From positions 28,396-92,395 of the IMG/VR virus record IMGVR_UViG_3300008107_000341: a DNA stretch of 64,000 nucleotides; one strand, given 5' to 3'. This document shows, piece by piece, positions 17,030-27,337 of this stretch (position 1 is the first letter of the stretch; the number at the start of each line of letters is the position of its first letter). This DNA is from a virus. The translations under genes were made by a program, and so were the position numbers. A model generated the notes under the pieces. It was not told where the DNA came from. It made no database searches and was given only the letters and a program-made list of their open reading frames with translations.

Positions 17030-17053
17030 TAAGTAACACTAATCGATCACCTA

Positions 17054-17093
17054 TTGACTCCTGCCTCTGGATGCCCTATATTACCTAGGTAAT
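17054..17093 (+). promoter_or_regulatory. Early-type promoter with perfect dyad after the -10
   Basis: TTGACT (17054-17059), 17-bp spacer, TATATT (17077-17082). The -10 runs into the perfect 14-bp palindrome ATTACCTAGGTAAT (17080-17093), which covers the expected transcription start. Related dyads follow the -10 of other promoters in this window, so this is probably an operator. Confidence 0.8.
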
Positions 17094-17105
17094 CGAGAGA
17101 CACCG

Positions 17106-17231
17106 ATGCCTGACACCTACGGATTCGGCGGCGATGCTATCACCTTCCTTGGTTTGGTTGGTGTTGTATCTACGCTGATCATTGTTGTTACTTCTTTCCG
17201 ACGCTACTACAATTCTCCTCTTCGCAAATGA
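17106..17231 (+). CDS. Small membrane protein, 41 aa
   Basis: ATG 17106 is the first start after the 17054 promoter. The product has a short Gly-rich N-terminus (MPDTYGFGGDAI) and one transmembrane helix at about 12-29 (TFLGLVGVVSTLIIVVTS), then a basic tail (FRRYYNSPLRK) that should face the cytoplasm. It ends in an ATGA overlap. Unknown function. Confidence 0.68.
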   Translation: MPDTYGFGGDAITFLGLVGVVSTLIIVVTSFRRYYNSPLRK

Positions 17232-17368
17232 CTTACGTTGTTAAACTCTACGTTGGTGGTAAAGTCTTTGATGAAGAAGTTATTGCCACCAACCCACAAG
17301 ATGCGCGTGAAACTGCACTTGCTCGCAATCCAAAAGCTAAAATCGTTGGTGTTAATGTGAAGTTCTAA
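17228..17368 (+). CDS. Small beta-alpha protein, 46 aa
   Basis: The 46-aa product (MTYVVKLYVGGKVFDEEVIA, then TNPQDARETALARNPKAKIV) has strand-helix-strand character like a short ferredoxin-like or DUF-type phage peptide. It is coupled to both neighbours: ATGA with the gene before, TAATG with the gene after. No function can be given. Confidence 0.65.
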   Translation: MTYVVKLYVGGKVFDEEVIATNPQDARETALARNPKAKIVGVNVKF

Positions 17369-17454
17369 TGAACATTGTTGACCTTTCACTGCTTGCCACC
17401 TTTGTTCTTTTAGTGGGTGGCATTGTGTTTTTCTTCAAAGCAATTTACCGTTAA
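17368..17454 (+). CDS. Very small membrane peptide, 28 aa
   Basis: ATG 17368 overlaps the stop before it by one base. The 28-aa product (MNIVDLSLLATFVLLVGGIV then FFFKAIYR) is a single hydrophobic helix with a short basic tail. It has the size of the one-helix subunits of photosynthetic complexes, but I could not match it to PsbM, PsbN, PetN or PsaJ, so no such function is claimed. Confidence 0.55.
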   Translation: MNIVDLSLLATFVLLVGGIVFFFKAIYR

Positions 17455-17459
17455 TCATC

Positions 17460-17849
17460 ATGGCAACTCGCTCTCGCATTGGTATTCAACTCGCTGACGA
17501 ATCTGTGCTCTCAGTGTATCACCATTGGGATGGTTACCCTGAGTGGCTGGGTCGCATTCTTCGCACTCATTACAACACCAAAGAGAAAGCTGCTGAACTC
17601 ATTGATGGTGGCGACATGAGTGTTGCTTGGAATGATGATCATCAACCAGAGTATTATTCTGCTCGTGGTGAAGATTGCCCTCCTCGCCTTGATGAAAACA
17701 AATATGGTTATCTGTGTGGTAACAACTCTGGTGAAGAGTATGCTTACCTGTTTGTAAACAACGAGTGGGTGTGCTATAATCTTCACCTGTTTGAAGAAAA
17801 CACTATGCCTACTGTCGCTGAAATCCCTACTGGTGCCCTTGCTGTTTAA
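17460..17849 (+). CDS. Conserved phage protein of the MATRSRIGI type
   Basis: The 129-aa protein starts MATRSRIGIQLADE and continues VLSVYHHWDGYPEWLG, the signature of a widespread phage family of unknown function found in phages of diverse bacteria. It ends with a short Ala/Val tail. No catalytic role is established. It follows the three small membrane and beta-alpha genes of the 17054 operon. Confidence 0.85.
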   Translation: MATRSRIGIQLADESVLSVYHHWDGYPEWLGRILRTHYNTKEKAAELIDGGDMSVAWNDDHQPEYYSARGEDCPPRLDENKYGYLCGNNSGEEYAYLFVNNEWVCYNLHLFEENTMPTVAEIPTGALAV

Positions 17850-17864
17850 TTTTTGAGGTAAATT

Positions 17865-18278
17865 ATGACTCGTTACAAGGATCCTAACACTTCTGTTGCT
17901 ATTGTTTTTGGTTCTGGATTTTTAGTTGTGGTTACTCTACTGTTTTTCGGTGGCCCACAATATAATGTTTGGCAACAATCGCTAGCTGGTAAAGCAGAAC
18001 TTCAGAAAGCAGAATATACTCGTCAGGTAGCAGTGTTGGAAGCACAAGCAAAGAAAGATAGTGCTCAACAACTTGCTGAAGCAGAAGTGATTCGTGCTCA
18101 AGGTGTTGCCAAAGCAAACCAAATCATCGGTGATAGTCTGAAAGATAATCGTGAATATCTTCAGTATCTGTATATCACTGGTATTGAAGATGGCGCTAAG
18201 AATGGTAACGTGACCATCTATGTTCCGACTGAAGGTGGAATGCCTGTTCCTACTCTGTCATACGATAAGCAACGCTAA
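17865..18278 (+). CDS. Membrane-anchored coiled-coil protein with band-7/prohibitin-like C-terminus
   Basis: The N-terminus has one transmembrane segment (SVAIVFGSGFLVVVTLLFFG, about 9-28). A long Ala/Glu/Gln-rich helix follows (EYTRQVAVLEAQAKKDSAQQ, AEAEVIRAQGVAKANQIIGD), then SLKDNREYLQYLYITGIED. That helix and the NREYLQYLYI tail match the C-terminal part of SPFH/prohibitin proteins, but the SPFH domain itself is missing. It may sit in the inner membrane and oligomerise. An AGGTAA stretch precedes the start. The gene ends at the terminator/promoter cassette at 18286. Confidence 0.65.
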   Translation: MTRYKDPNTSVAIVFGSGFLVVVTLLFFGGPQYNVWQQSLAGKAELQKAEYTRQVAVLEAQAKKDSAQQLAEAEVIRAQGVAKANQIIGDSLKDNREYLQYLYITGIEDGAKNGNVTIYVPTEGGMPVPTLSYDKQR

Positions 18279-18279
18279 T
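18265..18279. repeat. 15-bp direct repeat, copy 1 (ATAAGCAACGCTAAT)
   Basis: This 15-bp sequence ends the band-7-like gene. An identical copy lies at 19686-19700, in non-coding DNA at the same distance from the next terminator/promoter cassette. It suggests that the cassette, with the tail of this gene, was duplicated. Confidence 0.8.
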
Positions 18280-18285
18280 CAATCA

Positions 18286-18319
18286 GGGGGTTGACCCCCT
18301 CCCCTTTTTCCCCTATACT
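18286..18319 (+). promoter_or_regulatory. Composite hairpin/promoter cassette
   Basis: GGGGG (18286-18290), TTGA, CCCCC (18295-18299) can form a hairpin whose loop is the first half of the -35 box TTGACC (18291-18296). A 17-bp spacer containing CCCCTTTTTCCCC leads to TATACT (18314-18319). The hairpin plus T-run could terminate the upstream transcript. The -10 is followed by ACTAAGGTAATCAA, the operator-like motif shared with 21320. Confidence 0.78.
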
Positions 18320-18337
18320 ACTAAGGTAATCAAAGGA

Positions 18338-18511
18338 ATGGCATTGAACTACTTCAACACCAACATTGTTGCTCGTCACGATGATATCATGACTCTGAAT
18401 GCTTGGCAGGTTGATTTCTTCAACATGATACTCAATTTTCCTTGGTTGAATGATGCCGAGCGTGACTTCTACGAGGATGAAATGGCATCCTATCTTTGCT
18501 ACGACGTTTGA
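18338..18511 (+). CDS. Small hypothetical protein, 57 aa
   Basis: ATG 18338 follows an AAAGGA ribosome-binding site directly behind the composite cassette. The 57-aa product is acidic and aromatic (NTNIVARHDDIMTLNAWQV, WLNDAERDFYEDEMASYL), probably helical. Unknown function. Its position as first gene of an early transcript suits a takeover protein, but that is inference. Confidence 0.68.
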   Translation: MALNYFNTNIVARHDDIMTLNAWQVDFFNMILNFPWLNDAERDFYEDEMASYLCYDV

Positions 18512-18542
18512 TTCTTTTCCAAAACACTTCGCTTTTTTTATT

Positions 18543-18716
18543 ATGACTAACCAACTGATGATTTCCATGCTCAAGCAAGCTAACACTGGCGAGGAAATGC
18601 TGAATGTTCTTGATGCTATCACTAGTGTTGATGAAGAAAAAGAAACTGTTGCGTTTGCTATGATGCCTAGTTCTGGTATGATTCTCAACCACAAGGGTGA
18701 AGAAGTAGTGTTCTGA
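18543..18716 (+). CDS. Small hypothetical protein, 57 aa
   Basis: ATG 18543 is chosen over upstream in-frame ATGs that would read through the previous gene in another frame. The product is a helix followed by a beta hairpin: MTNQLMISMLKQANTGEEML, NVLDAITSVDEEKETVAF, MILNHKGEEVVF. It is the second gene of the 18286 transcript and has no recognised family. Confidence 0.65.
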   Translation: MTNQLMISMLKQANTGEEMLNVLDAITSVDEEKETVAFAMMPSSGMILNHKGEEVVF

Positions 18717-18731
18717 TTTATTAACATGGGG

Positions 18732-18760
18732 TTGCCAGATCCCCTCAAAACTGGTATAAT
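18732..18760 (+). promoter_or_regulatory. Sigma70 promoter with small hairpin at -35
   Basis: TTGCCA (18732-18737), 17-bp spacer, TATAAT (18755-18760). GGGG (18728-18731) and CCCC (18741-18744) bracket the -35, a weaker version of the hairpin seen at other promoters here. Downstream is a structured leader, including the inverted pair GCTCAAA (18769-18775) and TTTGAGC (18787-18793). Confidence 0.75.
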
Positions 18761-18766
18761 ACTCTC

Positions 18767-18808
18767 ATGCTCAAAGCGAATTGCAATTTGAGCAACCACA
18801 TTATTTAA
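18767..18808 (+). CDS. Possible 13-aa leader peptide
   Basis: ATG 18767, a few bases after the likely transcription start, opens MLKANCNLSNHII and a stop. The frame covers the inverted repeat GCTCAAA/TTTGAGC. It could be a leader peptide or chance; support is weak because there is no upstream ribosome-binding site. Confidence 0.2.
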   Translation: MLKANCNLSNHII

Positions 18809-18817
18809 TTAAACACA

Positions 18818-19677
18818 ATGAAAAAAGTTAAATAGAAGGTTGGGCAGTTAAACTGTGGCCTCTTGCTATCTTCCGTTCTGCTGATGGCACTGAAGTATTG
18901 TTTGATGGTCGCCACACTCTTCGTGCTATGAAGAACATTGGAGTTTATTCTGCTCCTGTTGCTATCTATGAGCGTGCGGTGACAGGTAATCCTGTGCTGG
19001 ATTCTATGTCTGATGAAACTGCACTGGGTTTGATGGGTCTGTTTATCAACGCTACTGAGGGTGGATATGTAAACGCTGTTCAGTGTGATTTCACTCGCAT
19101 GATTTCTGCAGCGTGTGCTGATGAATCTATCCCTCTCACCAACAAGAATGTTCGTCTGCTGATGGATATTTGTGGCGTGAATATTCGTTATAACCATAAA
19201 CCAACTGTTACAGCTATCTATAACGCAATCACCAACCAAACAACTTCATCTGTGCGCGTGTTCAATACTACGAAAGAAGAAGTGAAGAAGTATATTACTG
19301 ACAACCCGTTCTTTGGTTATAACAACACTTCTGATGAAGATGGTGTAACTCTTCGCACGAAGATCATCGACCACCAGTTTAACTATCGCTACGCTGGTGA
19401 TATTCTTCGATGGTATTTCGAGTCTGAGAATGGTCTTCGTGTTGCTGTTTCCAGCAAGGCAGGAGATGAGAAGAAAATCGAAGACGAACGCGAAGAGATC
19501 TTGTCTTATATTGAAGAGATTTATCTCAACAATGCCAAGCATTATGCATCTCGTTTGCGTGAGAAATTTGGTTCTCTGATTAACCTTCCCGAACCTTCTC
19601 TCGATGACTTGAATGGTCTTGAACTTTGGGGAATTCCTCAAATTGAAGGAGAAAATGCATCAGTTCAGCTCTTCTGA
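18818..19677 (+). pseudogene. ParB/sulfiredoxin-like gene with disrupted 5' end
   Basis: ATG 18818 opens MKKVK and stops at 18833. A second frame, closed upstream by TAA 18829 and lacking any ATG/GTG near its beginning, runs from 18832 to 19677. Its start reads IEGWAVKLWPLAIFRSADGT, then EVLFDGRHTLRAMKNIGVYS and APVAIYE, matching the second half of the ParB N-terminal fold (DGRHTLRAMK is the hallmark). The first half of that fold is missing. An internal deletion that joined start and body out of frame explains both facts; TTG 18898 could start a 259-aa remnant. Downstream sequence remains open and codon-normal, so inactivation would be recent. Annotated as probable pseudogene. Confidence 0.55.
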
Positions 19678-19685
19678 TCTATAGC

Positions 19686-19700
19686 ATAAGCAACGCTAAT
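19686..19700. repeat. 15-bp direct repeat, copy 2 (ATAAGCAACGCTAAT)
   Basis: Identical to 18265-18279, where the same bases are the end of a gene. Here they are non-coding and directly precede the terminator at 19703. Confidence 0.8.
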
Positions 19701-19702
19701 GG

Positions 19703-19730
19703 GCAGGGGTCTTGACGATCCCTGCTTTTT
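19703..19730 (+). terminator. Rho-independent terminator overlapping the helicase promoter
   Basis: GCAGGG (19703-19708) pairs with CCCTGC (19720-19725), directly followed by TTTTT (19726-19730). The 11-base loop holds the TTGACG -35 box of the helicase promoter. Confidence 0.85.
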
Positions 19731-19740
19731 CCTGTATATT
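19712..19740 (+). promoter_or_regulatory. Promoter for the DEAH helicase gene, -35 inside terminator loop
   Basis: TTGACG (19712-19717) lies in the loop of the terminator; a 17-bp spacer containing the T-run leads to TATATT (19735-19740). Start of transcription would be near 19747, about 16 nt before ATG 19763. Confidence 0.82.
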
Positions 19741-19762
19741 ATATTTGTTGAAACGACACGGC

Positions 19763-21013
19763 ATGAAACTTCGCTCTCACCAACCTCGCACCATTGCCGC
19801 CATGCAGAAAGCATGTAAAGGCATTGTAATTCAACCTACGGGTGCTGGCAAGACTCTAGAGCAGATTCTGCACTTGCAGGGGCGTCTAGATGCCTCTCAG
19901 AGCGGTCTTACTGCAGTAATTGTTGCTCCGCGTCTGCTCCTGTGTAATCAATTGTCTGACGAATATCTGCAGGTAATTGACACCAAGAAGGTTCACATTT
20001 TGCACGTTCACTCTGGTGAAACGCACCACTTCAGCAGCACCAAATCTGATACGATTGCACTGTTCAACAATACTGCTCGTGCTGCTGGTGAGTCTTGCCT
20101 GATCTTCACCACCTATCATTCTCTGCATCGTATTGTTGATGCTGGTATTGATATTGATGTTGCTTACTTCGATGAAGCACACAATGCTACCAGCAAGCAA
20201 TTCTTTCCCAAGACTGCTATGGTATCTGAGATGGCAAACAACTGCTATTTCTTTACTGCAACGCCTCGTCATTCTAAGAATCCGAAAGGTCGTGGCATGA
20301 ACAACTCTCTGGTGTTTGGTGATGTGATTGAGATCACGCCTGCACAGGAACTGATTGAGTCTGGTAGCATCATTCCTCCCTCGATTCAGATTCACGAACA
20401 ACCTGCAGTTGCTCGCACTAAAGCTAACGCTCACGAGTGTGATGCCAACACTGTGCTGGAGATTGTAGACAATCTCGATGCTGAGTCTGGGCAGAAAGTT
20501 CTGATCGCTGCACCATCCTCCAAGATCATTTGGAACATGGTTGCTGCTACTGCACTGCTGCAGGATCTATCTGAGCGTGGTTACGATGTGATGCACATCA
20601 CTGCTAAGCACGGTGCCTACGTTAACAAAACCAAAGTGAACCGTGAGGTATTCTTTGACACGCTGACTGCATGGGGCAAAGACCCCAACCGTAAGTTTGT
20701 GGTGTTTCACTATAGCATTCTGTCTGAGGGTATCAATGTTCCTGGTCTGACGCATTGTGTGCTGCTTCGTAACCTCAACATTGTGGAGATGGCACAAACC
20801 ATTGGTCGTGTAATCCGCATGAATGTGGATGATGCGCGTGATATTGCGGAAGGCAAACTCACTGCTGGTGACCTGGGTAACTATCGCAAACCGTTTGGTT
20901 TCGTGACTGTGCCCATCTACGGTAACTATGGCGCACAGATTCAGAAGCGTCTGCAGAATGTTGTAGATGCTATCTTCGTCAAGGGTGTGCCGCCCACTTC
21001 CATTATTGCATGA
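19763..21013 (+). CDS. Superfamily 2 DEAH-box helicase (UvsW/restriction-helicase-like)
   Basis: ATG 19763 is chosen because the in-frame ATG at 19712 lies in the promoter. The 416-aa protein has the Q-like start LRSHQPRTIAAMQ, Walker A PTGAGKT (25-31), motif Ia VIVAPRLLLCNQL, motif II DEAH (137-140), motif III TATPRHSK (about 164), and the C-terminal lobe with VVFHYSILSEGINVPGLTHC and motif VI QTIGRVIRMN (about 340-350). All motifs for ATP-driven translocation are present. Family precedent is T4 UvsW, which unwinds recombination and replication intermediates, but relation to restriction-type helicases is equally close. It has its own strong promoter. Confidence 0.9.
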   Translation: MKLRSHQPRTIAAMQKACKGIVIQPTGAGKTLEQILHLQGRLDASQSGLTAVIVAPRLLLCNQLSDEYLQVIDTKKVHILHVHSGETHHFSSTKSDTIALFNNTARAAGESCLIFTTYHSLHRIVDAGIDIDVAYFDEAHNATSKQFFPKTAMVSEMANNCYFFTATPRHSKNPKGRGMNNSLVFGDVIEITPAQELIESGSIIPPSIQIHEQPAVARTKANAHECDANTVLEIVDNLDAESGQKVLIAAPSSKIIWNMVAATALLQDLSERGYDVMHITAKHGAYVNKTKVNREVFFDTLTAWGKDPNRKFVVFHYSILSEGINVPGLTHCVLLRNLNIVEMAQTIGRVIRMNVDDARDIAEGKLTAGDLGNYRKPFGFVTVPIYGNYGAQIQKRLQNVVDAIFVKGVPPTSIIA

Positions 21014-21020
21014 GTGTCAA

Positions 21021-21046
21021 GGGGCGGCAGCATGACCTGTTGCCCC
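21021..21046 (+). terminator. Strong hairpin after helicase gene
   Basis: GGGGCGGCAG (21021-21030) pairs over ten positions (two G-U) with CTGTTGCCCC (21037-21046), loop CATGAC. No U-run follows, so it may act as a terminator with help or as a transcript-stabilising end. Confidence 0.6.
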
Positions 21047-21080
21047 ATCCCTGCAGCCAGATCACCGAAAAAATCAAAAG

Positions 21081-21086
21081 TATAAT
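21081..21086 (+). promoter_or_regulatory. -10 element TATAAT upstream of the 21099 gene
   Basis: A consensus TATAAT (21081-21086) stands 12 bp before ATG 21099, with GGAG in between as the ribosome-binding site. No good -35 is seen at the right distance (CAGATC would fill the slot), so the promoter may depend on an activator or be weak. Confidence 0.5.
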
Positions 21087-21098
21087 ATAGGAGACACA

Positions 21099-21314
21099 AT
21101 GATCACCAAAGATGGATATGCAGCAGTGCCATGGGGCACCAGATACGTTATACTTTACAATGGAGAGCAGATTTCAGACGTTGCGACGGCGGAAGAGGCG
21201 GTAGCATACATTCGAAATGCTCAAAAAAGCACGAATCAAAAGCAGCCCCGATCGACCACCCCCAAGACCCATAAGAAAAGCAAATCGAAAGGGCGCTTGA
21301 CACTCGACCCCTGA
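21099..21314 (+). CDS. Small protein with basic disordered tail, 71 aa
   Basis: The N-terminal 45 residues form a short beta/helix unit (DGYAAVPWGTRYVILYNGEQ, VATAEEAVAYIRNAQ) in a pattern like small phage proteins with a YVILYNGE strand. The C-terminal 25 residues are Lys/Ser/Thr/Pro-rich (QPRSTTPKTHKKSKSKGRL). The GGAG ribosome-binding site is clear. The basic tail could bind nucleic acid; unknown function. Confidence 0.68.
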   Translation: MITKDGYAAVPWGTRYVILYNGEQISDVATAEEAVAYIRNAQKSTNQKQPRSTTPKTHKKSKSKGRLTLDP

Positions 21315-21325
21315 TCCCCTATACT
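21297..21325 (+). promoter_or_regulatory. Early-type promoter with operator-like motif
   Basis: TTGACA (21297-21302), 17-bp spacer, TATACT (21320-21325), overlapping the end of the 21099 gene. From 21320 the twenty bases TATACTACTAAGGTAATCAA are identical to those starting at 18314. Confidence 0.83.
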
Positions 21326-21350
21326 ACTAAGGTAATCAACGGAACACCCT

Positions 21351-21623
21351 ATGACTGACTATCTGCTCATCACCTTCGGTCCTGCTGAAGATGTAGAGCG
21401 TAACGGTTGGTATAACTGCAAAGAGCGTTTTAATTACAAAGGCGCTGCTATTCGCAAAGGTCTTGATTCTCTTTGCATTGGTGGTTGTTTTGGTTATGTT
21501 GTGATTGAAGAGGGTGAAGATTGGTGGGAAATTGTTGATGAGTCTGGCACTGAGAATGCTAGCATCACTGCTAATCGCTTCACTTTCACTGTTCAACCTG
21601 CTCCCAAACTGGTGATGGTCTGA
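21351..21623 (+). CDS. Hypothetical protein, 90 aa
   Basis: This is the first gene behind the 21297 promoter. The product is beta-rich with conserved-looking aromatic and acidic stretches (DYLLITFGPAEDVERNGWYN, YVVIEEGEDWWEIVDESGTE). No family is recognised. It overlaps the next start by one base. Confidence 0.7.
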   Translation: MTDYLLITFGPAEDVERNGWYNCKERFNYKGAAIRKGLDSLCIGGCFGYVVIEEGEDWWEIVDESGTENASITANRFTFTVQPAPKLVMV

Positions 21624-21784
21624 TGAGAACCACTTACATTTTCCTTGCCTTTATTGGCATTTTGATGTATAATGTTTTTCTGATTCAACGTGATCAAAAA
21701 ATGTTTGAAGCATACGATAAAGCGTGTGCTACACTACCTCAACCTCACCCTGATTGTCACTATGCAAAACAACAACCTCGATGA
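21623..21784 (+). CDS. Small membrane protein, 53 aa
   Basis: ATG 21623 overlaps the stop before it. Residues 3-22 form a transmembrane helix (TTYIFLAFIGILMYNVFLI), followed by a polar tail with two Cys (KACATLPQPHPDC). It overlaps the next gene by 23 bp. Unknown function. Confidence 0.65.
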   Translation: MRTTYIFLAFIGILMYNVFLIQRDQKMFEAYDKACATLPQPHPDCHYAKQQPR

Positions 21785-21908
21785 TGCTTTACTCGATATT
21801 GATGAATATCGTGAGAAAGAATTGATTGATTACTATGTGGAAGATCTAGAGCGTCTTGCTGCAGAAGCACAAGTGACTGTAGATTATTACATTGCAGAGT
21901 TTGTATGA
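21762..21908 (+). CDS. Small acidic helical protein, 48 aa
   Basis: ATG 21762 is preferred over ATG 21690, which would read across the membrane-protein gene in another frame. The product (MQNNNLDDALLDIDEYREKE, LIDYYVEDLERLAAEA) is helical and acidic. It ends in an ATGA overlap. Unknown function. Confidence 0.62.
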   Translation: MQNNNLDDALLDIDEYREKELIDYYVEDLERLAAEAQVTVDYYIAEFV

Positions 21909-22060
21909 ACACACTCTCGATTCCTAATCTTCTTTATGAAGAATTGATCATGCTACAGGATATCATGGTGATGCTCGACAAATCTGATTTTGCATCAAAT
22001 CTAGATCCTACAGAGCGTGAGATCTTCAATGACCTTTACACTAAGATCATTCAATCATAA
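21905..22060 (+). CDS. Small helical protein, 51 aa
   Basis: ATG 21905 overlaps the upstream stop (ATGA), and its TAA shares a base with the next ATG. The product is helical (IPNLLYEELIMLQDIMVMLD, DPTEREIFNDLYTKIIQ). Coupling on both sides supports it; function unknown. Confidence 0.63.
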   Translation: MNTLSIPNLLYEELIMLQDIMVMLDKSDFASNLDPTEREIFNDLYTKIIQS

Positions 22061-22278
22061 TGGATAAAGTATCACACTGCCCAGCATGTAATAGTTTATG
22101 GCATACGCTAGCTATACCTGAGCATTTACATGATCAGTATTCTCCACCATACTATTACAGCACAGTGATTGCTGTTCAATCATGGGAGACAGATCGCACA
22201 CATTACTATTTGTGTCCTGATTGCGGAACCAAATTTGACCTTTGCGGAACTGTTAAGAACGATGACGCCAACGCTTGA
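22060..22278 (+). CDS. Small zinc-ribbon protein, 72 aa
   Basis: Two Cys pairs, C7-P-A-C10 in SHCPACNSLWH and C52-P-D-C55 in YYLCPDCGTKFDLCG, are spaced as in a zinc ribbon, with Tyr/Pro-rich sequence between them. Such ribbons bind DNA, RNA or RNA polymerase, so a regulatory part is possible but not shown. It overlaps the next gene by 17 bp. Confidence 0.72.
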   Translation: MDKVSHCPACNSLWHTLAIPEHLHDQYSPPYYYSTVIAVQSWETDRTHYYLCPDCGTKFDLCGTVKNDDANA

Positions 22279-22579: not shown

Positions 22580-22698
22580 TGACTAACAAGATTGTTGATT
22601 TATTGATCCTTGAATTGAAACTCTATATAGAGGGTCATACAGCAGCATCCATTTCAATTGAAAACTATCGCCGTGGTATTGCCACGCTCTACAAATGA
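22579..22698 (+). CDS. Small protein, 39 aa
   Basis: ATG 22579 overlaps the upstream stop by one base and the frame ends in an ATGA overlap. An AGGAGG Shine-Dalgarno sequence stands immediately upstream. The product (MTNKIVDLLILELKLYIEGH, TAASISIENYRRGIATLYK) looks like a helix-turn-helix-sized peptide, but the pattern is too short to claim. Confidence 0.6.
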   Translation: MTNKIVDLLILELKLYIEGHTAASISIENYRRGIATLYK

Positions 22699-22814
22699 TT
22701 ACTACTATCATGGCTGCATTTGCGTTTGGTTATTGTGTCACTGATATTATTCAAAACTATCGTGCCAACAAACGCATCGAACAATTTGTCAAAGATCTGG
22801 AGAAACCCGAATGA
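22695..22814 (+). CDS. Small membrane-associated protein, 39 aa
   Basis: ATG 22695 overlaps the stop before it. The N-terminal 18 residues are hydrophobic (ITTIMAAFAFGYCVTDII), and the rest is a charged helix (NYRANKRIEQFVKDLEK). It is coupled to the next gene by ATGA. Unknown function. Confidence 0.6.
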   Translation: MITTIMAAFAFGYCVTDIIQNYRANKRIEQFVKDLEKPE

Positions 22815-23014
22815 TCACTCTACAAACCATCAATCCCACCACCTATAAAGTGGTTCTTCAAACCGAAGATCTTACTGAAGAAGAGCGCACTAAACTGATC
22901 AGAAAGCGTGACTTCTTCCCTGCTGAGTTTGTTCACGCACTCATTGATCTTCTCCCACCTGATCAAACATTTGACACATACGATCACTATAACATGACTC
23001 TATATGTCAAATGA
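22811..23014 (+). CDS. Hypothetical protein, 67 aa
   Basis: The product reads as alpha/beta (TTYKVVLQTEDLTEEERTKL, FVHALIDLLPPDQTFDTYDH) with a final strand. It overlaps both neighbours. No family is recognised. Confidence 0.65.
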   Translation: MITLQTINPTTYKVVLQTEDLTEEERTKLIRKRDFFPAEFVHALIDLLPPDQTFDTYDHYNMTLYVK

Positions 23015-23225
23015 ACAGCAATACAATGAATTAATCGATTGGGCGGGGGATCGTATAGATCTCCTGCTCTCTCGTAGTAAAGCATGTAAAACATCACAAC
23101 GTAAAACAACACATAGACTGAACGCACAAGCATTAGAAGAAGAGTTCTTTGATTGGTTCGCTGCTAGACATTCAGACTCTACTCAAAATGTTCTCTTCAT
23201 ACCCTATCATGGAAAACTATCCTAG
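23004..23225 (+). CDS. Hypothetical protein, 73 aa
   Basis: The helical product has a basic middle (RSKACKTSQRKTTHRL) flanked by Trp/Phe-rich helices (YNELIDWAGDRIDLLLSR, EEEFFDWFAARH). It overlaps the oxygenase gene by 38 bp if that starts at 23188. Unknown function. Confidence 0.62.
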   Translation: MSNEQQYNELIDWAGDRIDLLLSRSKACKTSQRKTTHRLNAQALEEEFFDWFAARHSDSTQNVLFIPYHGKLS

Positions 23226-23844
23226 GTGCTCTACTGTAGGTGTCATTCAAACTCACCTACCACATACAATCATTGATACAATTAGAACTGAATGCCACGC
23301 CTACGATAATCAAATCAAACAAGCAAACACATTCAATAATAATACTAATTACCGTAAGACATTCATCAAAGCAATATCATCCTATGAATGGTTCGCTGGT
23401 ATGCTCTGGCATTATATCTCACGAGCTAATAGAGAGAACTTTCTATTTGATATCACCTGCCTAGAGAATGAAGGATTAAATCATCTCATCTATCCTCCTG
23501 GGCATTACTATCATTGGCATCAAGATCAAGCATTGACATCATGCCTTCGCCCAACAATACTACCATCAGTCTATAACTCTACAATACAAGAGTCTTTGAC
23601 TGTAGAACACCAATGGATAAGAAAAATTTCTTTCTCATTACAACTAACAGATAGTAATGACTATACAGGGGGCGATCTACAATTCCATAATAATAATTAC
23701 ACTAAGGAAGGAGTAATCACTGCACCTAGAGAGAAAGGATCATTGATTATATTTGATAGTAGATTATCACATAGGGTAACAAGAGTAAGAGAAGGAACAA
23801 GAGAAGCATTGGTAGGATGGGTATTAGGACCACGATGGAAATAG
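23188..23844 (+). CDS. 2OG-Fe(II) oxygenase
   Basis: This is the fifth oxygenase in the window. ATG 23188 is chosen; 23149 and 23209 are alternatives. The 218-aa product has the core IYPPGHYYHWHQDQAL with H111-x-D113, TGGDLQFHNNN, distal H195 in DSRLSHRVTRV and R205 in EGTREALVGWVLGP. It resembles PKHD-type hydroxylases. It is the last gene before the repeat-rich gap at 23845. Confidence 0.88.
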   Translation: MFSSYPIMENYPRCSTVGVIQTHLPHTIIDTIRTECHAYDNQIKQANTFNNNTNYRKTFIKAISSYEWFAGMLWHYISRANRENFLFDITCLENEGLNHLIYPPGHYYHWHQDQALTSCLRPTILPSVYNSTIQESLTVEHQWIRKISFSLQLTDSNDYTGGDLQFHNNNYTKEGVITAPREKGSLIIFDSRLSHRVTRVREGTREALVGWVLGPRWK

Positions 23845-23885
23845 TTTTCCACAGGGTTGTGGAAAAAGTATAGAGTTTTTCCACA
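23845..23885. repeat. Cluster of three TTTTCCACA boxes (DnaA-box-like)
   Basis: TTTTCCACA at 23845-23853 and 23877-23885 and its reverse complement TGTGGAAAA at 23858-23866. The first two form an inverted pair with 4 bp between them. TTTTCCACA is the known DnaA-box form of cyanobacteria, one base from the E. coli box TTATCCACA. They could also fold as an RNA hairpin. Confidence 0.75.
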
Positions 23886-24033
23886 GATTTAAATGTGTTA
23901 AAAAATAGTATTGGGTTTTCTATGTGCTTCGTAGAATGTGTCTACAAATAGTCTGATGATACTGTGAAAGGTCTCAGAATCTTCAGAGTTGTTGTAGTCT
24001 TAGCACGCGAGCTAACGAGTTGTCAAGCGTTTG

Positions 24034-24195
24034 TCACAAAACTCAAAAATCTCAAAAAACTCAAAAATCTCAAAAACGACAAAACTGAGATTTCTGAGAA
24101 TTCTGTATTTCCAAGGTTTTTTGAGTTTTTTCGAATTTTAAAAAACTTAATTTTTTAGTTTTTTGAGATTTTTGAGACTTTTGAGAATTTTAAAG
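24034..24195. repeat. A+T-rich TCAAAAA/TTTTTGA repeat with long inverted symmetry
   Basis: The left half repeats CTCAAAAA-type units about every 9-10 bp (CTCAAAAATCTCAAAAAACT); the right half, around 24110-24190, holds the opposite form (TTTTTTGAGATTTTTGAGAC). The arms can pair over about 30 bp with few mismatches. A frame reading KLKNLKKLKNLKN here is an artefact of the repeat. The stretch 23886-24240 has no credible gene. Confidence 0.75.
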
Positions 24196-24246
24196 TCTTA
24201 TAATTATAACTTATCATTATAATAAGGGTTACTAATCAATAAAGGG

Positions 24247-24286
24247 TTGACAAACCATCGAAAATACAGTATTATTACTAAGTAAT
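24247..24286 (+). promoter_or_regulatory. Early-type promoter with dyad after the -10
   Basis: TTGACA (24247-24252), 17-bp spacer, TATTAT (24270-24275), followed by the dyad ATTACT-A-AGTAAT (24274-24286), related to the palindrome at 17080. It precedes ATG 24303. Confidence 0.82.
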
Positions 24287-24302
24287 CAATCAAAGACATC
24301 GA

Positions 24303-24545
24303 ATGACTGTCAAAAACTACACTGATCTTCCTAGTTCTGCTATCAAAAACATCACTATTGATACTGTAAAGAACACTGTATCAGTAGAGTATACTACTGG
24401 TAACAAACAGTATACTTACAGCACCGAAGATGCTGAAGGTTTTGATCAGCAACTGCTGTCAGAATTCGACTCTGATGATATCTCAGTGGGTCGATTCATG
24501 AATCAGAGCGTCACAAATGGCACTCTGAATCTGCTTGTTGACTGA
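24303..24545 (+). CDS. KTSC-like domain protein
   Basis: The 80-aa product has the layout of KTSC proteins: LPSSAIKNITIDTVKNTVSV (S-S-A-I then a strand), EYTTGNKQYTYSTED (strand turn with G-x-x-Y-x-Y) and a C-terminal helix with FMNQSV. In some phages and bacteria KTSC is fused to RNA polymerase- or lysyl-tRNA synthetase-related proteins; no activity is established. It has its own promoter beside the candidate origin. Confidence 0.7.
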   Translation: MTVKNYTDLPSSAIKNITIDTVKNTVSVEYTTGNKQYTYSTEDAEGFDQQLLSEFDSDDISVGRFMNQSVTNGTLNLLVD

Positions 24546-24555
24546 CCCTACCACA

Positions 24556-24563
24556 GATAAATA
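24556..24563 (+). promoter_or_regulatory. Possible T4-type late promoter (GATAAATA)
   Basis: GATAAATA differs in one base from the T4-like late box TATAAATA and lies in the 105-bp gap ahead of ATG 24651. Evidence is limited to this one element. Confidence 0.35.
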
Positions 24564-24650
24564 CGTTTGTCAAGGGGTAAAGACACCAATTTGGTTGTCA
24601 ATATCCCTTCCAGACGATTCTAGACACCTCTCAGAGAACATTTCAAACCG

Positions 24651-24815
24651 ATGGCTAAATCCAAAGCAGGAAACTACAAGGATAATTTCTATAACGAATT
24701 CGATGAATTCGAAGAGCATGAAGTAGAACAAAAGTATGGTGTGAAAGTGAAGAATATTGGTCGCACTCCAAAGAAACAGAAAAAGCTTAAATTTGATGGT
24801 GATTTTGAATGGTAA
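24651..24815 (+). CDS. Small charged protein, 54 aa
   Basis: ATG 24651 opens a 54-aa frame with a strongly acidic first half (NEFDEFEEHEVEQKYG) and a Lys-rich second half (RTPKKQKKLKFDG). It is probably disordered in part. It sits between the two TTTTCCACA clusters and ends 13 bp before the second. Its location next to a putative origin is suggestive, but no function is shown. Confidence 0.62.
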   Translation: MAKSKAGNYKDNFYNEFDEFEEHEVEQKYGVKVKNIGRTPKKQKKLKFDGDFEW

Positions 24816-24828
24816 TCTAATAAAATAG

Positions 24829-24892
24829 TTTTCCACAGATATACTAAAACCTGTGGAAAACTTTCAATAGTTTTCCACAACCCTGTGGAAAA
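24829..24892. repeat. Cluster of four TTTTCCACA boxes in two inverted pairs
   Basis: TTTTCCACA at 24829-24837 and 24871-24879; TGTGGAAAA at 24852-24860 and 24884-24892. The first pair forms AGTTTTCCACAG...CTGTGGAAAACT (12-bp arms, 12-bp loop), the second AGTTTTCCACA-ACCC-TGTGGAAAACT (11-bp arms). They could be DnaA binding sites or paired transcript-end hairpins. Confidence 0.75.
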
Positions 24893-24902
24893 CTCTCATA
24901 AG

Positions 24903-24945
24903 CCCCCCTAATCAGACCCATAAGCAAAGGTGATGGTTAGGGGGG
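24903..24945 (+). terminator. Hairpin abutting the next promoter
   Basis: CCCCCCTAA (24903-24911) pairs exactly with TTAGGGGGG (24937-24945), loop 25 nt. TTGACTTTT follows directly, so its right arm touches the -35 box at 24946. No long U-run, so terminator strength is uncertain. Confidence 0.65.
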
Positions 24946-24974
24946 TTGACTTTTGCCCCGATCTGACCCATACT
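24946..24974 (+). promoter_or_regulatory. Early-type promoter adjoining hairpin
   Basis: TTGACT (24946-24951), 17-bp spacer, CATACT (24969-24974), then ACCTAAGTCAACAG, a variant of the downstream motif. It precedes ATG 24999. Confidence 0.75.
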
Positions 24975-24998
24975 ACCTAAGTCAACAGCAAACGACCC

Positions 24999-25310
24999 AT
25001 GCGCCTCATCGAACGCCAAATGAACGCTGCTATCACCAACAGCAAAGATTGGCAGAAAGACAATACCATGGTGAGCAACGCTGATGGTGTTTCTTTCGTG
25101 TTTCTTCATGGTAACTGTATCGCCCAGATTGGTGATACGTTTGTGCGACTGTTTGATGGTGGTTGGCAAACTAACACCACCAAATCTCGCCTGAATGCTA
25201 TCCTGACTGCACACGGCAACGGTGAGCGTGTTTTCCAGAAGAATTTCAATTGGTTTGTTAGCACTGCTGCAGGCGATGTTGAGTTCGAATCTGGTATGCT
25301 TCTCGCCTGA
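24999..25310 (+). CDS. Conserved cyanophage/phage protein (IERQM...FDGGWQTNTTKSRLNA)
   Basis: The 103-aa product carries MRLIERQMNAAITNSKDWQK, VFLHGNCIAQIGD and LFDGGWQTNTTKSRLNAIL, a signature I associate with a small family frequent in phages of marine bacteria and cyanobacteria. The last part (VFQKNFNWFV) also fits. Function unknown; its own promoter and single-gene unit suggest early expression. Confidence 0.75.
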   Translation: MRLIERQMNAAITNSKDWQKDNTMVSNADGVSFVFLHGNCIAQIGDTFVRLFDGGWQTNTTKSRLNAILTAHGNGERVFQKNFNWFVSTAAGDVEFESGMLLA

Positions 25311-25350
25311 ACTTTACACTACATACTAACTGAAACCCATGGAGGATTAC

Positions 25351-25479
25351 ATGACCATTTCTGAAATGTATCAAGAGATTGTTGATCAAGAGGTGGCAGA
25401 CATTTTCCTTGATAGTGATAGTTTGATCGTTGACGATTATGCTCTCGAAGATGTAATCGAAGAGGTCTACGATTTGTAA
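25351..25479 (+). CDS. Small acidic protein, 42 aa
   Basis: ATG 25351 follows GGAGG by 5 bases, an ideal Shine-Dalgarno, so it is preferred to in-frame ATG 25339. The product (MTISEMYQEIVDQEVADIFL, LIVDDYALEDVIEEVYDL) is acidic and helical. It is co-transcribed with the gene before and ends before a new promoter unit. Small acidic proteins can be DNA mimics, but this is speculation. Confidence 0.6.
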   Translation: MTISEMYQEIVDQEVADIFLDSDSLIVDDYALEDVIEEVYDL

Positions 25480-25499
25480 TACAAACTGATCAGCCGCCC

Positions 25500-25557
25500 G
25501 ACCAGTTGGGGAACTGTCACACCACTGGTCGCCGCGGCCACCCCCTGCCCTTATACT
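25500..25557 (+). promoter_or_regulatory. Hairpin plus -10 element (TATACT)
   Basis: GACCAGT (25500-25506) pairs with ACTGGTC (25524-25530); TATACT is at 25552-25557, 17 bp after the weak slot TCGCCG. AAGTCAAACG follows the -10, a version of the shared downstream motif. It precedes ATG 25583. This is where the sequence becomes G+C-rich. Confidence 0.6.
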
Positions 25558-25582
25558 ATAGAAGTCAAACGCACCGAGACCT

Positions 25583-25711
25583 ATGTGGGATGAGATCCAA
25601 GACATGCCTGGTGAGATCTTCGATATCGAAGATTGGGGGCACCCCCTAGCAGAGTGCTGGCACGATATGGAGCTGAATGTGCCAGATGAAGAGGTGGCAC
25701 AGGAGGGGTGA
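25583..25711 (+). CDS. Small acidic protein, 42 aa
   Basis: ATG 25583 opens a 42-aa acidic frame (MWDEIQDMPGEIFDIEDWGH, AECWHDMELNVPDEEVAQ). It stands alone behind its own promoter unit, and its stop codon lies in the hairpin loop of the next unit. Acidity and position suit a host-interaction protein, but the function is unknown. Confidence 0.6.
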   Translation: MWDEIQDMPGEIFDIEDWGHPLAECWHDMELNVPDEEVAQEG

Positions 25712-25738
25712 CCCTCCCCCCTCTCCTGCCTCTATACT
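25702..25738 (+). promoter_or_regulatory. Hairpin/promoter cassette
   Basis: GGAGGG (25702-25707) pairs with CCCTCC (25712-25717) over loop GTGA, which overlaps the weak -35 GTGACC. TATACT at 25733-25738 and then GATCAAGTCAACC. The twenty bases CTATACTGATCAAGTCAACC starting at 25732 recur exactly at 25981. Confidence 0.7.
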
Positions 25739-25763
25739 GATCAAGTCAACCACACACGAGACC

Positions 25764-25931
25764 ATGACCCGCTTCGAAGTTTACGTGCCCTCTGCCCCTT
25801 ACGAGTCCGAGAGCACCTGGGATCTCGATCGTGCCTGGGATCTGTGCCTCTCGCTGAGCGAGGAGTTCGGATACGCTCAGGTTCGCCAGGATGGTATCAT
25901 CCTGGGAGACTACACCAACGGGGGTGTGTGA
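25764..25931 (+). CDS. Small protein, 55 aa
   Basis: ATG 25764 is placed after the promoter unit (an in-frame ATG at 25677 lies in the previous gene). The product (MTRFEVYVPSAPYESESTWD, LDRAWDLCLSLSEEFGYAQV) looks like a strand-helix-strand fold ending in VRQDGIILGDYTNGG. Single-gene unit. Family unknown. Confidence 0.65.
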   Translation: MTRFEVYVPSAPYESESTWDLDRAWDLCLSLSEEFGYAQVRQDGIILGDYTNGGV

Positions 25932-25951
25932 CACTCTAGAAACTGGCACAA

Positions 25952-25987
25952 GGGGTCACCACAGACCCCACCCTGACCCTCTATACT
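25952..25987 (+). promoter_or_regulatory. Hairpin plus promoter for the ArdA-like gene
   Basis: GGGGTC (25952-25957) pairs with GACCCC (25964-25969). TATACT is at 25982-25987 with no clear -35, followed by GATCAAGTCAACC. Same downstream motif as 25732. Confidence 0.65.
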
Positions 25988-26011
25988 GATCAAGTCAACC
26001 AAACAAAGCAA

Positions 26012-26440
26012 ATGACCGTGACTCTGACCTCCAACTATCGTGACATGCTCGCTGCTGCCACTGTTGAGAAGATCGATGAATTGCTCGATGAGAACTATGC
26101 TCTCGATGACATGCTCGAATTCATCGATGAGCGTAATGAGAACGATTTTGTAGCATACTATGAAGAGTATTGCCGTTGTGGTGAAGCAATCGGTTACGAT
26201 GCTGTAGATGCTCTCATCGATGAGATGGGGTGCGTTTCTGACATCGAAGGGTGTGATGATCGCTTCCGTGGTTGGTATGAATCGACCGCTGATTTCGCTG
26301 AAGAGTTTTATACTGATACCTACGATGTTCCCTCTGCATTGGTGATCGATTGGGAGGCAACTTACGATAGCACCCTCCGCTACGATTACACTGCCTGTGA
26401 GAAAGGTTATCGTCAGGTGGCGATCTTCTCTGATTACTGA
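26012..26440 (+). CDS. ArdA-like antirestriction protein
   Basis: The 142-aa acidic protein matches the C-terminal half of ArdA antirestriction proteins: a helical N-terminus, then DIEGCDDRFRGWYESTADFA (78-96), EEFYTDTYDVPSALVIDWEA (97-116) and YDYTACEKGYRQVAIF (124-139). In ArdA the equivalents are a Y-x-G/W-Y turn, the dFAee helix, the I-P strand and the Y-D-y-e-a stretch. ArdA mimics B-form DNA and blocks type I restriction enzymes. It is shorter than typical ArdA (about 165 aa) and lacks a clear N-terminal domain. It has its own promoter unit, as expected of an early anti-defence gene. Confidence 0.68.
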   Translation: MTVTLTSNYRDMLAAATVEKIDELLDENYALDDMLEFIDERNENDFVAYYEEYCRCGEAIGYDAVDALIDEMGCVSDIEGCDDRFRGWYESTADFAEEFYTDTYDVPSALVIDWEATYDSTLRYDYTACEKGYRQVAIFSDY

Positions 26441-26448
26441 GTGACAGT

Positions 26449-26499
26449 CTGAGAGGTGGCACACGCTGCCTCTCAGCACCCCATCCTAGCCCCTATACT
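26449..26499 (+). promoter_or_regulatory. Hairpin and -10 for the KTSC gene
   Basis: CTGAGAGG (26449-26456) pairs with CCTCTCAG (26469-26476). TATACT at 26494-26499, followed by GATCTCAGTTCAAAC, the second form of the downstream motif, which recurs at 27096. No good -35. Confidence 0.6.
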
Positions 26500-26522
26500 G
26501 ATCTCAGTTCAAACGACACACG

Positions 26523-26723
26523 ATGTTCAAGGCATTCACCCTCGGATCTACCGCCATCAGCAAGATGACCGCCGATCCTATCACGGGCACCGTTCGCGTT
26601 CGCTTTCGTGGGGGCACTAAGTTCTACCGCTTCGAGAACGTCTCCCGTCGCGCCATCGTGGCGATGCTGCTGCGCCCTCCCGTGAGCATGGGCCAGTGGG
26701 TAAACCGTCACTGCCTCGCCTGA
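26523..26723 (+). CDS. KTSC-domain protein, second copy
   Basis: The 66-aa product reads FTLGSTAISKMTADPITGTV, RVRFRGGTKFYRFENVSRRA, the S-x-x-I, V-R-F-x-G-G-x-x-Y-x-F pattern of KTSC, and ends with a helix (VSMGQWVNRH). It is far more G+C-rich and Arg-rich than the KTSC gene at 24303, so the two have different origins. Confidence 0.72.
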   Translation: MFKAFTLGSTAISKMTADPITGTVRVRFRGGTKFYRFENVSRRAIVAMLLRPPVSMGQWVNRHCLA

Positions 26724-26741
26724 TCAGGTCGCCTGACCCTG

Positions 26742-26747
26742 TAGACT
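26742..26747 (+). promoter_or_regulatory. -10 element TAGACT
   Basis: TAGACT at 26742-26747 followed by AATCACATCAGC and ATG 26769. Only a 4-bp hairpin (GGTC/GACC, 26727-26738) precedes it and no -35 is evident. Confidence 0.45.
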
Positions 26748-26768
26748 AATCACATCAGCAAACAACCC

Positions 26769-26930
26769 ATGAGAATCGAAGTTCGTTACCAGACTCCCTA
26801 CAATGCTTGTGAGTGGCGCTCGCAGTGGTTTAAGGATCTGGCAGAGGCAGAGCGTATGGTAGAATTCTATCGCTCCTGTGGGTCACCCTCTCACATCGCC
26901 CCTTCCTCCCTCGCTCAGTTCGATCGCTGA
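26769..26930 (+). CDS. Small protein, 53 aa
   Basis: ATG 26769 starts a 53-aa frame (MRIEVRYQTPYNACEWRSQW, FKDLAEAERMVEFYRSCG) with strand-helix pattern and two Cys. It is followed closely by the gene at 26938. Unknown function. Confidence 0.6.
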   Translation: MRIEVRYQTPYNACEWRSQWFKDLAEAERMVEFYRSCGSPSHIAPSSLAQFDR

Positions 26931-26937
26931 TTCTACC

Positions 26938-27078
26938 ATGCCGAACCTCATCCGCCTTTCCCTGGTCGCCGCCATCTGCCTGATGTTCGCCAACACCCTA
27001 GGATCGGTGTTCGCCCTAGCCCAGACCCTAGACCGTGTGACAGCCGAGAAGGTGGCACAGATCGCCGCCATCGACTGA
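26938..27078 (+). CDS. Small membrane or exported protein, 46 aa
   Basis: ATG 26938 is used instead of an upstream ATG that lies in the previous gene. The product (MPNLIRLSLVAAICLMFANT, LGSVFALAQTLDRVTAEKVA) has a positively charged start and a 22-residue hydrophobic core. A cleavage site at VFALAQ would make it secreted; otherwise it is a one-pass membrane protein. Confidence 0.6.
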   Translation: MPNLIRLSLVAAICLMFANTLGSVFALAQTLDRVTAEKVAQIAAID

Positions 27079-27089
27079 CCCCGACCCTG

Positions 27090-27111
27090 TAGACTGATCT
27101 CAGTTCAAACA
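27090..27111 (+). promoter_or_regulatory. -10 element TAGACT with conserved downstream motif
   Basis: TAGACT at 27090-27095 followed by GATCTCAGTTCAAAC, the same 15 bases as after 26499, and then ATG 27118. No -35. Confidence 0.5.
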
Positions 27112-27117
27112 AAGCAA

Positions 27118-27291
27118 ATGACCAACCCCAAGATCGACCTCGCCGCCATCATGGCAGACTACACCACCCGCTACAATGAGATGCAGGCACGGTCTGCCGC
27201 CAACCGCCAGGCATTCGCTGAGGGTCGCCCCTTCCCCTTCCCCGCCCCCGAGTGCCAGTCTGACACCTGGAACATCAGCGACCGCCACTGA
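27118..27291 (+). CDS. Small protein, 57 aa
   Basis: ATG 27118 starts MTNPKIDLAAIMADYTTRYN then EMQARSAANRQAF, probably a helix, followed by a Pro-rich tail (EGRPFPFPAPECQSDTW). G+C-rich codons. Unknown function. Confidence 0.6.
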   Translation: MTNPKIDLAAIMADYTTRYNEMQARSAANRQAFAEGRPFPFPAPECQSDTWNISDRH

Positions 27292-27304
27292 GCGGCGCTG
27301 CCTG

Positions 27305-27310
27305 TAGAAT
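27305..27310 (+). promoter_or_regulatory. Extended -10 element TGTAGAAT
   Basis: TAGAAT at 27305-27310, preceded by TG, then TCTCAGTTCAACC, again the downstream motif. It precedes ATG 27338/27350. Confidence 0.45.
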
Positions 27311-27337
27311 TCTCTCAGTTCAACCGACAGACGACCG

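Follow-up and report, generated by a model that had tools for sequence, protein, structure and literature searches.

Kyanoviridae promoter cassettes with a probable intrinsic terminator nested in the promoter core

Elements that join a terminator to a promoter have been described in T4-like phages under the names promoter early stem-loop (PeSL) and composite conserved promoter-terminator motif (Arbiol et al., 2010; Comeau et al., 2014, both cited in PMC4503421). In these elements a terminator stem-loop is linked to an early sigma70-like promoter in hyperplastic regions, where it separates small non-essential ORFs. There are many copies per genome, with the same cassette before different genes, and the PeSL is reported to mediate recombination and the shuffling of modules. 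In the clear cases measured, the stem-loop lies entirely ahead of the promoter; from the middle of its loop to the centre of the -35 box are 29-30 bp in RB49 and 43-45 bp in T4. A second point of comparison is the moron of lambdoid phages, an ORF flanked by a promoter and a terminator (PMC1524935).

The DNA considered here is a 64-kb stretch (the window) from an S-PM2-like cyanomyovirus of the Kyanoviridae. Between 17.0 and 27.3 kb, no fewer than 13 cassettes are built alike, with an upstream box, a gap of about 30 bp, a -10 box and, 24-33 nt further on, a start codon. Two upstream boxes alternate, the A-box (GTGmCAGTy..TGkCAC) and the B-box (ATAAGCAACrCTAAT). The cassettes are as follows, in window coordinates.

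Cassette 1, 17029..17105, + strand: B-type, no hairpin; B-box 17029-17043, -35 TTGACT 17054-17059, -10 TATATT 17077-17082, leader to ATG 17106.
Cassette 2, 18265..18337, + strand: B-type, nested hairpin; B-box 18265-18279, hairpin 18285-18300, -10 TATACT 18314-18319.
Cassette 3, 18728..18760, + strand: GGGG..TTGCCA..CCCC (18728-18744) around -35 18732-18737, -10 TATAAT 18755-18760, no T-run.
Cassette 4, 19686..19762, + strand: helicase promoter with putative nested intrinsic terminator; B-box 19686-19700, stem-loop 19701-19727, -10 TATATT 19735-19740, helicase ATG 19763.
Cassette 5, 21271..21350, + strand: B-type, no hairpin; B-box-like 21271-21285, TTGACA 21297-21302, -10 TATACT 21320-21325.
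Cassette 6, 24222..24302, + strand: B-type; B-box-like 24222-24236, TTGACA 24247-24252, weak GGTTGACAAACC hairpin, -10 TATTAT 24270-24275.
Cassette 7, 24899..24998, + strand: before the Kyano_Gp96 gene; long stem 24901-24947 ending at -35 TTGACT 24946-24951, -10 CATACT 24969-24974.
Cassette 8, 25500..25582, + strand: A-type; A-box variant 25500-25520, 31-nt gap, -10 TATACT 25552-25557.
Cassette 9, 25679..25765, + strand: A-type, T-less nested hairpin; A-box 25679-25700, hairpin 25700-25728, -10 TATACT 25733-25738.
Cassette 10, 25928..26011, + strand: A-type, T-less nested hairpin; A-box 25928-25949, hairpin 25952-25969 GGGGTC-ACCACA-GACCCC, -10 TATACT 25982-25987.
Cassette 11, 26441..26522, + strand: A-type; A-box 26441-26462, hairpin 26449-26476 overlapping the box, -10 TATACT 26494-26499.
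Cassette 12, 26691..26768, + strand: A-type; degenerate A-box ending 26711, -10 TAGACT 26742-26747.
Cassette 13, 27037..27117, + strand: A-type; A-box 27037-27058 within the upstream ORF, -10 TAGACT 27090-27095.
Cassette 14, 27252..27337, + strand: A-type; A-box variant 27252-27273, -10 TAGAAT 27305-27310.

The neighbourhood includes Kyano_Gp96 and helicase genes, and most of its ORFs have no Pfam match. The ORF after cassette 10 has relatives in S-PM2 and S-SZBM1 that are annotated as anti-restriction protein. This is the PeSL type of setting, a hyperplastic region of small ORFans in a T4-like phage, and the window cassettes place an early sigma70-like promoter right before a small ORF. A preliminary description of the window had pointed to no named phage element of this sort, whereas the PeSL is a named element of this general kind. 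An Rfam covariance-model search of 15-29 kb gave no match at E up to 1.

The A-box and the B-box mark two separate promoter types, each with a putative binding factor. B-type cassettes have a TTGAC -35, whereas the -35 is weak in the A-type, where the A-box ends 28-32 bp before the -10 in nearly all cases. The cassettes from 25552 to 27305 have no recognisable TTGACA, and their common parts are the upstream 22-bp box and the -10. The A-box was also considered as an RNA stem, but its arms do not covary (Fisher p 0.18, in the wrong direction), which makes a DNA site likelier. It was rejected as a host regulatory site, since the stringent A-box plus -10 pattern has no Synechococcus or Prochlorococcus match among the genome contigs searched. 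One Flavobacteriales MAG did give matches; these look like cyanophage sequence binned there by mistake, at least on the contig that was examined. Both Syn9 and a P-TIM40-like contig carry the A-box. Doron et al., in the ISME J of 2016, reportedly found in Syn9 and P-TIM40 a novel early-gene regulatory element, with middle genes under host-like promoters. Those two classes may correspond to the A-box promoters and the B-box/TTGAC promoters.

It is clear that the eight hairpins named in the preliminary description exist, as do the promoter boxes. In the GGGGG-TTGA-CCCCC hairpin of cassette 2, at 18286-18299, the -35 box (TTGACC, 18291-18296) does fall in the loop, with a T5 run 4 nt past the stem. 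The stem-loop of cassette 4 holds TTGACG in its loop and is directly followed by TTT, GGGG and CCCC do bracket TTGCCA at 18728, and the right arm of the stem at 24903-24945 abuts TTGACT at 24946. Other particulars need amending. The loop of the hairpin at 25702-25717 contains the TGA stop codon of the upstream ORF, as had been noted, but the cassette there is one of those with no recognisable TTGACA. The hairpins at 25500, 25952 and 26449 do precede a -10 box, but the one at 25500 is largely an A-type upstream box itself. Only two window hairpins, 18286 and 19703, have a T-run after the stem. Judged by sequence, the label "full terminator" appears right for 19703 and plausible for 18286, and it is unsupported for the remaining window hairpins. 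Since most lack a T-run, the proposed insulation of single-gene units is supported in at most two window cassettes.

Folded singly, only 19703 (z -3.7), 24903 (z -3.0) and 26449 (z -2.7) are more stable than dinucleotide shuffles. Those at 25702 and 25952 are borderline, and 18286 (z -0.3), 18728 (z -0.1) and 25500 fold no better than the shuffles. Single-hairpin folding was therefore rejected as proof of the window hairpins, most of which are not significant. The preliminary description had named random occurrence of such loops as a refutation. A TTGAC-like box falls in a loop three times in 17.0-27.4 kb, against 0.33 expected and a maximum of 2 in 40 simulations. Taken together, the window hairpins form a pattern beyond chance, and the comparative counts across relatives are far stronger than this within-window test.

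The strongest case is the helicase cassette. Among nonredundant helicase upstream regions, 34 of 42 have a terminator-like hairpin with a T-run, compared with 1.35 (maximum 5) in dinucleotide shuffles. In a stricter set the hairpin occurs in 23 of 29 (1.5 shuffled), with a T-run in 23/23 (0.3 shuffled). Where the -10 was identified, the loop centre lies -24 to -18.5 from it, that is on the -35, in 26/26 relatives. The result extends to further named isolates outside the original sample, of which 10 of 14 have a terminator. One is tandem (B23) and nine are centred on the -35 (S-CAM22, ACG-2014d, S-CAM8, S-TIM4, P-RSM3, S-WAM2, S-SCSM1, S-8S55 and ACG-2014f). Several of the further isolates have TTGAC in the loop, and the S-CAM22 / ACG-2014d element reads AGACCCC-TTGACA-GGGGTCT-T7. 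No nested hairpin was found at the helicase of S-PM2, Syn9, S-RIM32 or S-CAM9.

The phenomenon is not confined to the helicase. Boxed A-type cassettes have a -35-centred hairpin in 60 of 306 cases (13.1 shuffled, maximum 26), with a T-run in 15 (1.1 shuffled), and the B-type have one in 15 of 27 (1.5 shuffled), with a T-run in 8 (0.35 shuffled). About 80% of A-box promoters lack a strong nested hairpin, so the hairpin is an optional module. The suggested search of related phages for loops containing TTGAC produced 47 nonredundant TTGAC/TTGC-loop candidates, 15 before the helicase and 32 before other ORFs or with none found. A handful of these, with AT-rich stems, may have arisen by chance. One 20-bp palindrome cassette recurs ahead of different genes. 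Covariation in the TTGAC-loop cassettes scores 0.82 against 0.19, with 7/7 pairs changed on both sides (0/500 shuffles), a pairing figure that is inflated because the rows were selected for forming hairpins. Only rows of one geometry were counted, because MAFFT structural alignment across shifted stems mis-pairs rows. The shuffle tests (the helicase, boxed-cassette and ArdA-like/Gp96 counts) are free of this selection bias. The idea that terminator and promoter share bases is therefore borne out by conservation and stem covariation, but what they share is not in general the -35. Of 72 centred hairpins, 30 have TTG[AC] at the loop and 42 have no -35 there at all. What holds generally is that the hairpin occupies the gap from the upstream box to the -10.

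The likely explanation is that these are compact promoter cassettes in which, at the helicase and, across the family, at many other genes, an intrinsic terminator is nested in the promoter core. The gap between box and -10 often holds a GC-rich hairpin with its loop on the -35 position, and such a hairpin, with a T-run after it in the -35/-10 spacer, would constitute an intrinsic terminator inside the promoter. RNA polymerase completing the upstream early transcript would halt within the spacer, some 10 bp short of the -10. Once free, this DNA would bind polymerase, and the next transcript would begin some 20 nt farther downstream. Like ordinary intrinsic (Rho-independent) terminators, 19703 and its orthologues have a GC stem with a T-run after it. 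In contrast to operon terminators, however, bases of the loop and spacer double as the -35 and spacer of the next promoter. Lambdoid morons are likewise single small ORFs with their own signals, but the cyanophage has one element for both sides rather than a separate terminator and promoter. As for the PeSL, its terminator features are found in sequence at the helicase and many nested cassettes and not at the T-less hairpins. The cyanophage loop coincides with the -35 (offset -1.5 to +2), unlike the tandem order of the RB49 and T4 PeSLs. Nesting, as opposed to an upstream stem-loop, therefore makes this a new variant of the known PeSL and not an unnamed kind. The nested arrangement, kept in many phages of marine cyanobacteria, packs the two signals more closely than RB49 and T4, the coliphages used for comparison, where they lie side by side.

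Why should the two signals overlap? A PeSL may simply have been squeezed smaller by scarce intergenic space, with no functional coupling, and we give this somewhat better than even chances. It concerns why and not what, and is compatible with the nested terminator. For most window cassettes 5-53 nt separate the stop codon from the -10, and the one stretch without conservation is that from box to -10. Nesting has probably arisen because intergenic gaps are so short that only this stretch is unconstrained enough to hold a terminator. The many loops without any -35 fit as well. What fits less easily is the very tight position of the helicase loop, within about 6 bp in all 26, and the retention of TTGAC in the loop while stems change, although the promoter needs a -35 there anyway.

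It is rather doubtful that the hairpins are instead DNA-level palindromes (an operator or an extruded hairpin) that stand in for the -35 or gate it. This would apply mainly to the T-less class, which is enriched and conserved at ArdA-like promoters (25 of 43, 4.0 shuffled; T-run in 2/25) and at Gp96 promoters (27 of 54, 4.3 shuffled; T-run in 1/27). Among the latter, orthologues of cassette 7 often have a centred G/C hairpin. T-less hairpins are centred exactly at the -35 position, and many such promoters lack TTGACA. Against this, the T-run of all 23 helicase hairpins is on the downstream side only, as an RNA terminator requires, stems vary freely with pairing kept and no conserved half-site, and tetraloops such as TTCG occur among the nested hairpins. 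With no T-run at most window, ArdA-like and Gp96 hairpins, termination there is doubtful, and they may be weaker terminators or 3'-end stabilisers. T-less hairpins are G-left/C-right by 44:2, and the C-rich spacer occurs also without a hairpin. Part of the signal may therefore be selection on the spacer itself.

A coupled relay is improbable. Polymerase terminating in the spacer, already on the next promoter, would re-initiate there, and a promoter-bound polymerase or box-bound factor would gate upstream termination. Finally, it is most improbable that G- and C-rich spacers give hairpins around TTGAC without selection, because even though 18286, 18728 and 25500 taken alone match shuffles, hairpins exceed dinucleotide shuffles 4- to 15-fold in several data sets, with attached T-runs and compensatory changes.

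If the nested terminator is real, an abundant ocean virus family makes one stretch of ~30 bases serve as both stop and start signal, kept by compensatory change. If the relay were also true, termination and initiation would be coupled along a string of one-gene units. The nested cassettes offer a natural system for asking whether RNA polymerase couples termination to re-initiation, and each is a candidate minimal part that may insulate and start a gene at once.

The closest named relatives of the window (positions 28396-92395 of a 92,395-bp IMG/VR record) are Synechococcus myoviruses, S-PM2 first. At all loci compared, its proteins are identical to those of the 192.7-kb contig IMGVR_UViG_3300008108_000011. 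The cassettes occupy a run of small ORFs lying between structural blocks. Aligning them on the -10 told two promoter types apart, each with its own upstream box.

Boxes and genes discussed here (window positions)
17029-17043: B-box
18265-18279: B-box
19686-19700: B-box
19763: DEAD/ResIII helicase gene, small-ORF stretch
24920-24934: B-box
24999: Kyano_Gp96 protein gene, small-ORF stretch
25500-25520: A-box
25679-25700: A-box
25928-25949: A-box
26012: ArdA-like ORF, annotated as anti-restriction protein in S-PM2 and S-SZBM1 relatives
26441-26462: A-box
27037-27058: A-box
27252-27273: A-box

A MazE-antitoxin-like ORF (PF04014) lies at 28223-28429. Inverted repeats AGTTTTCCACA/TGTGGAAAACT at 23844-23890 and 24829-24895, possibly minus-strand terminators or a replication element, lie either side of a region where CTCAAAAA repeats abound (24020-24200); TGTGGAAAA repeats in comparison loci L085 and L152 resemble these.

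Between 17.0 and 24.97 kb most promoters consist of TTGAC, 17-18 bp and a -10, with the B-box ATAAGCAACrCTAAT exactly 11 bp ahead of TTGAC. At least 23 IMG/VR contigs carry this box, which could serve either as an UP-like element or as a site for a protein. By the same alignment, a good -35 is absent from the cassettes at 25.5-27.3 kb. In its place stands the A-box, GTGmCAGTyN5rnTGkC(C)AC, an imperfect palindrome of 22-24 bp. A first pass covered 257 A-box cassettes that had a -10 in range, drawn from S-PM2, Syn9, S-RIM32, S-RSM4 and IMG/VR contigs; nearly every box ended 28-32 bp before the -10, and hundreds of cyanophage promoters carry it at this fixed spacing. The gap that follows shows just two trends, a weak TTG and enrichment for C in the spacer. 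The two arms do not covary among the A-box cassettes compared, so a DNA site bound by protein is likelier than an RNA stem. Its stringent pattern had no match in Synechococcus or Prochlorococcus genome contigs. Contig L286 (NHFO01000063.1) of the Flavobacteriales MAG TMED113 has four A-box promoters, matches cyanophage P-TIM40 and looks like a mis-binned cyanophage contig; a second contig of that MAG, L287, also has A-box matches. The A-box may correspond to the novel regulatory element that Doron et al. 2016 reportedly described for early genes of Syn9 and P-TIM40.

As a general rule the hairpin occupies the gap from box to -10, with its centre at the -35 position. With the loop on that position and -8 kcal/mol or better, such hairpins occur in 60 of 306 nonredundant A-box cassettes (13.1, maximum 26, in dinucleotide shuffles) and 15 of 27 B-box cassettes (1.5). 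Those with a T-run number 15 (1.1 in shuffles) and 8 (0.35), respectively. The preliminary description made the loop itself the -35. This holds for a large minority, since 30 of 72 centred hairpins have TTG[AC] at their loop, but not as a general rule. The hairpins it named (18286, 18728, 19703, 24903, 25500, 25702, 25952 and 26449) and their promoter boxes are all present, and chance is a poor explanation: 17.0-27.4 kb holds three loops with TTGAC or TTGCC against 0.33 expected. Its view of them as terminators fits less widely. A T-run follows just two of them, 18286 and 19703, and when each hairpin is folded by itself only 19703, 24903 and 26449 beat shuffles significantly.

The T-run class is best seen at the helicase. 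A terminator-like hairpin with T-run precedes this gene in 34 of 42 nonredundant relatives (1.35, maximum 5, in shuffles); in a stricter de-duplicated set the hairpin is found in 23 of 29, all 23 with a T-run. The loop centre falls at -24 to -18.5 from the -10 in 26/26 helicase cassettes where that box was identified. Among 14 named isolates outside these sets ten have the terminator, nested within the promoter in nine. In S-CAM22, ACG-2014d and S-CAM8 the -35 TTGAC sits in the loop of AGACCCC..GGGGTCT-TTTTTT, and S-TIM4 and Prochlorococcus phage P-RSM3 have other stems in the same place. Pairing is kept while stem sequences vary among lineages. Across 11 cassettes (TTGAC-loop or same-geometry) the covariation score is 0.82, with double changes in all seven stem pairs, whereas shuffles give 0.19 (0/500) and sliding the partner gives 0.22 at most; because these rows had been chosen as hairpins, this shows compensatory variety, not an unbiased rate.

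Related phages were also searched for such loops before other genes. A strict search of the fetched loci required at least six Watson-Crick pairs, a loop with TTGAC/TTGC, a T-run and a -10. It gave 47 nonredundant candidates, of which 15 lie ahead of the helicase and the other 32 precede a different ORF or have no ORF found; a few with AT-rich stems may be chance. The 20-bp palindrome AGACCCCTTGACAGGGGTCT stands unchanged ahead of several unrelated ORFs, and contig L304 has three copies, their stems differing yet internally paired. An exact-pattern scan of IMG/VR found the palindrome in 43 contigs.

The majority of window hairpins belong to a T-less class. Hairpins precede the ArdA-like ORF in 25 of 43 cases (4.0 in shuffles) and the Gp96 ORF in 27 of 54 (4.3), with a T-run in only two and one, respectively. 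Nearly all T-less hairpins are G-left/C-right (44:2). Their possible roles include weak or factor-aided termination, protection of 3' ends and action as DNA elements.

Is the element new? The preliminary description knew no name for it, but PMC4503421, citing Arbiol 2010 and Comeau 2014, already names composite promoter-terminator motifs of T4-like phages PeSLs (promoter early stem-loops). Their geometry was measured directly in about 50 kb each of RB49 and T4. In clear cases the stem-loop is wholly upstream of the promoter: its loop centre precedes the -35 centre by 29-30 bp in RB49 and by 43-45 bp in T4, and none of the 28 listed cases comes within 4 bp of that centre. In contrast, the cyanophage hairpin is nested, with its loop centre at -1.5 to +2. 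PeSL density in the S-PM2 ORFan region was judged low (PMC4503421). Nested cassettes occur in S-PM2 at 5129, 11400, 20708, 21799, 22069, 23758, 24098 and 24583, some outside that region; the hairpin at 22069 is GGGAGCAGG-TTGACG-CCTGCTCCC. The kind of element is known; its nested form is apparently a new variant.

Packing in the window is tight, with often 5-53 nt from stop codon to -10 and 24-33 nt from -10 to start. Lack of room is the likeliest reason for nesting. In the T-run class the T-run is on the downstream side of the hairpin; polymerase ending the upstream transcript would release in the promoter spacer, and the same stretch would serve as the next promoter. Termination and initiation might also be functionally coupled. 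Dual use of the same bases, proposed for all cassettes, is supported by sequence within the T-run class.
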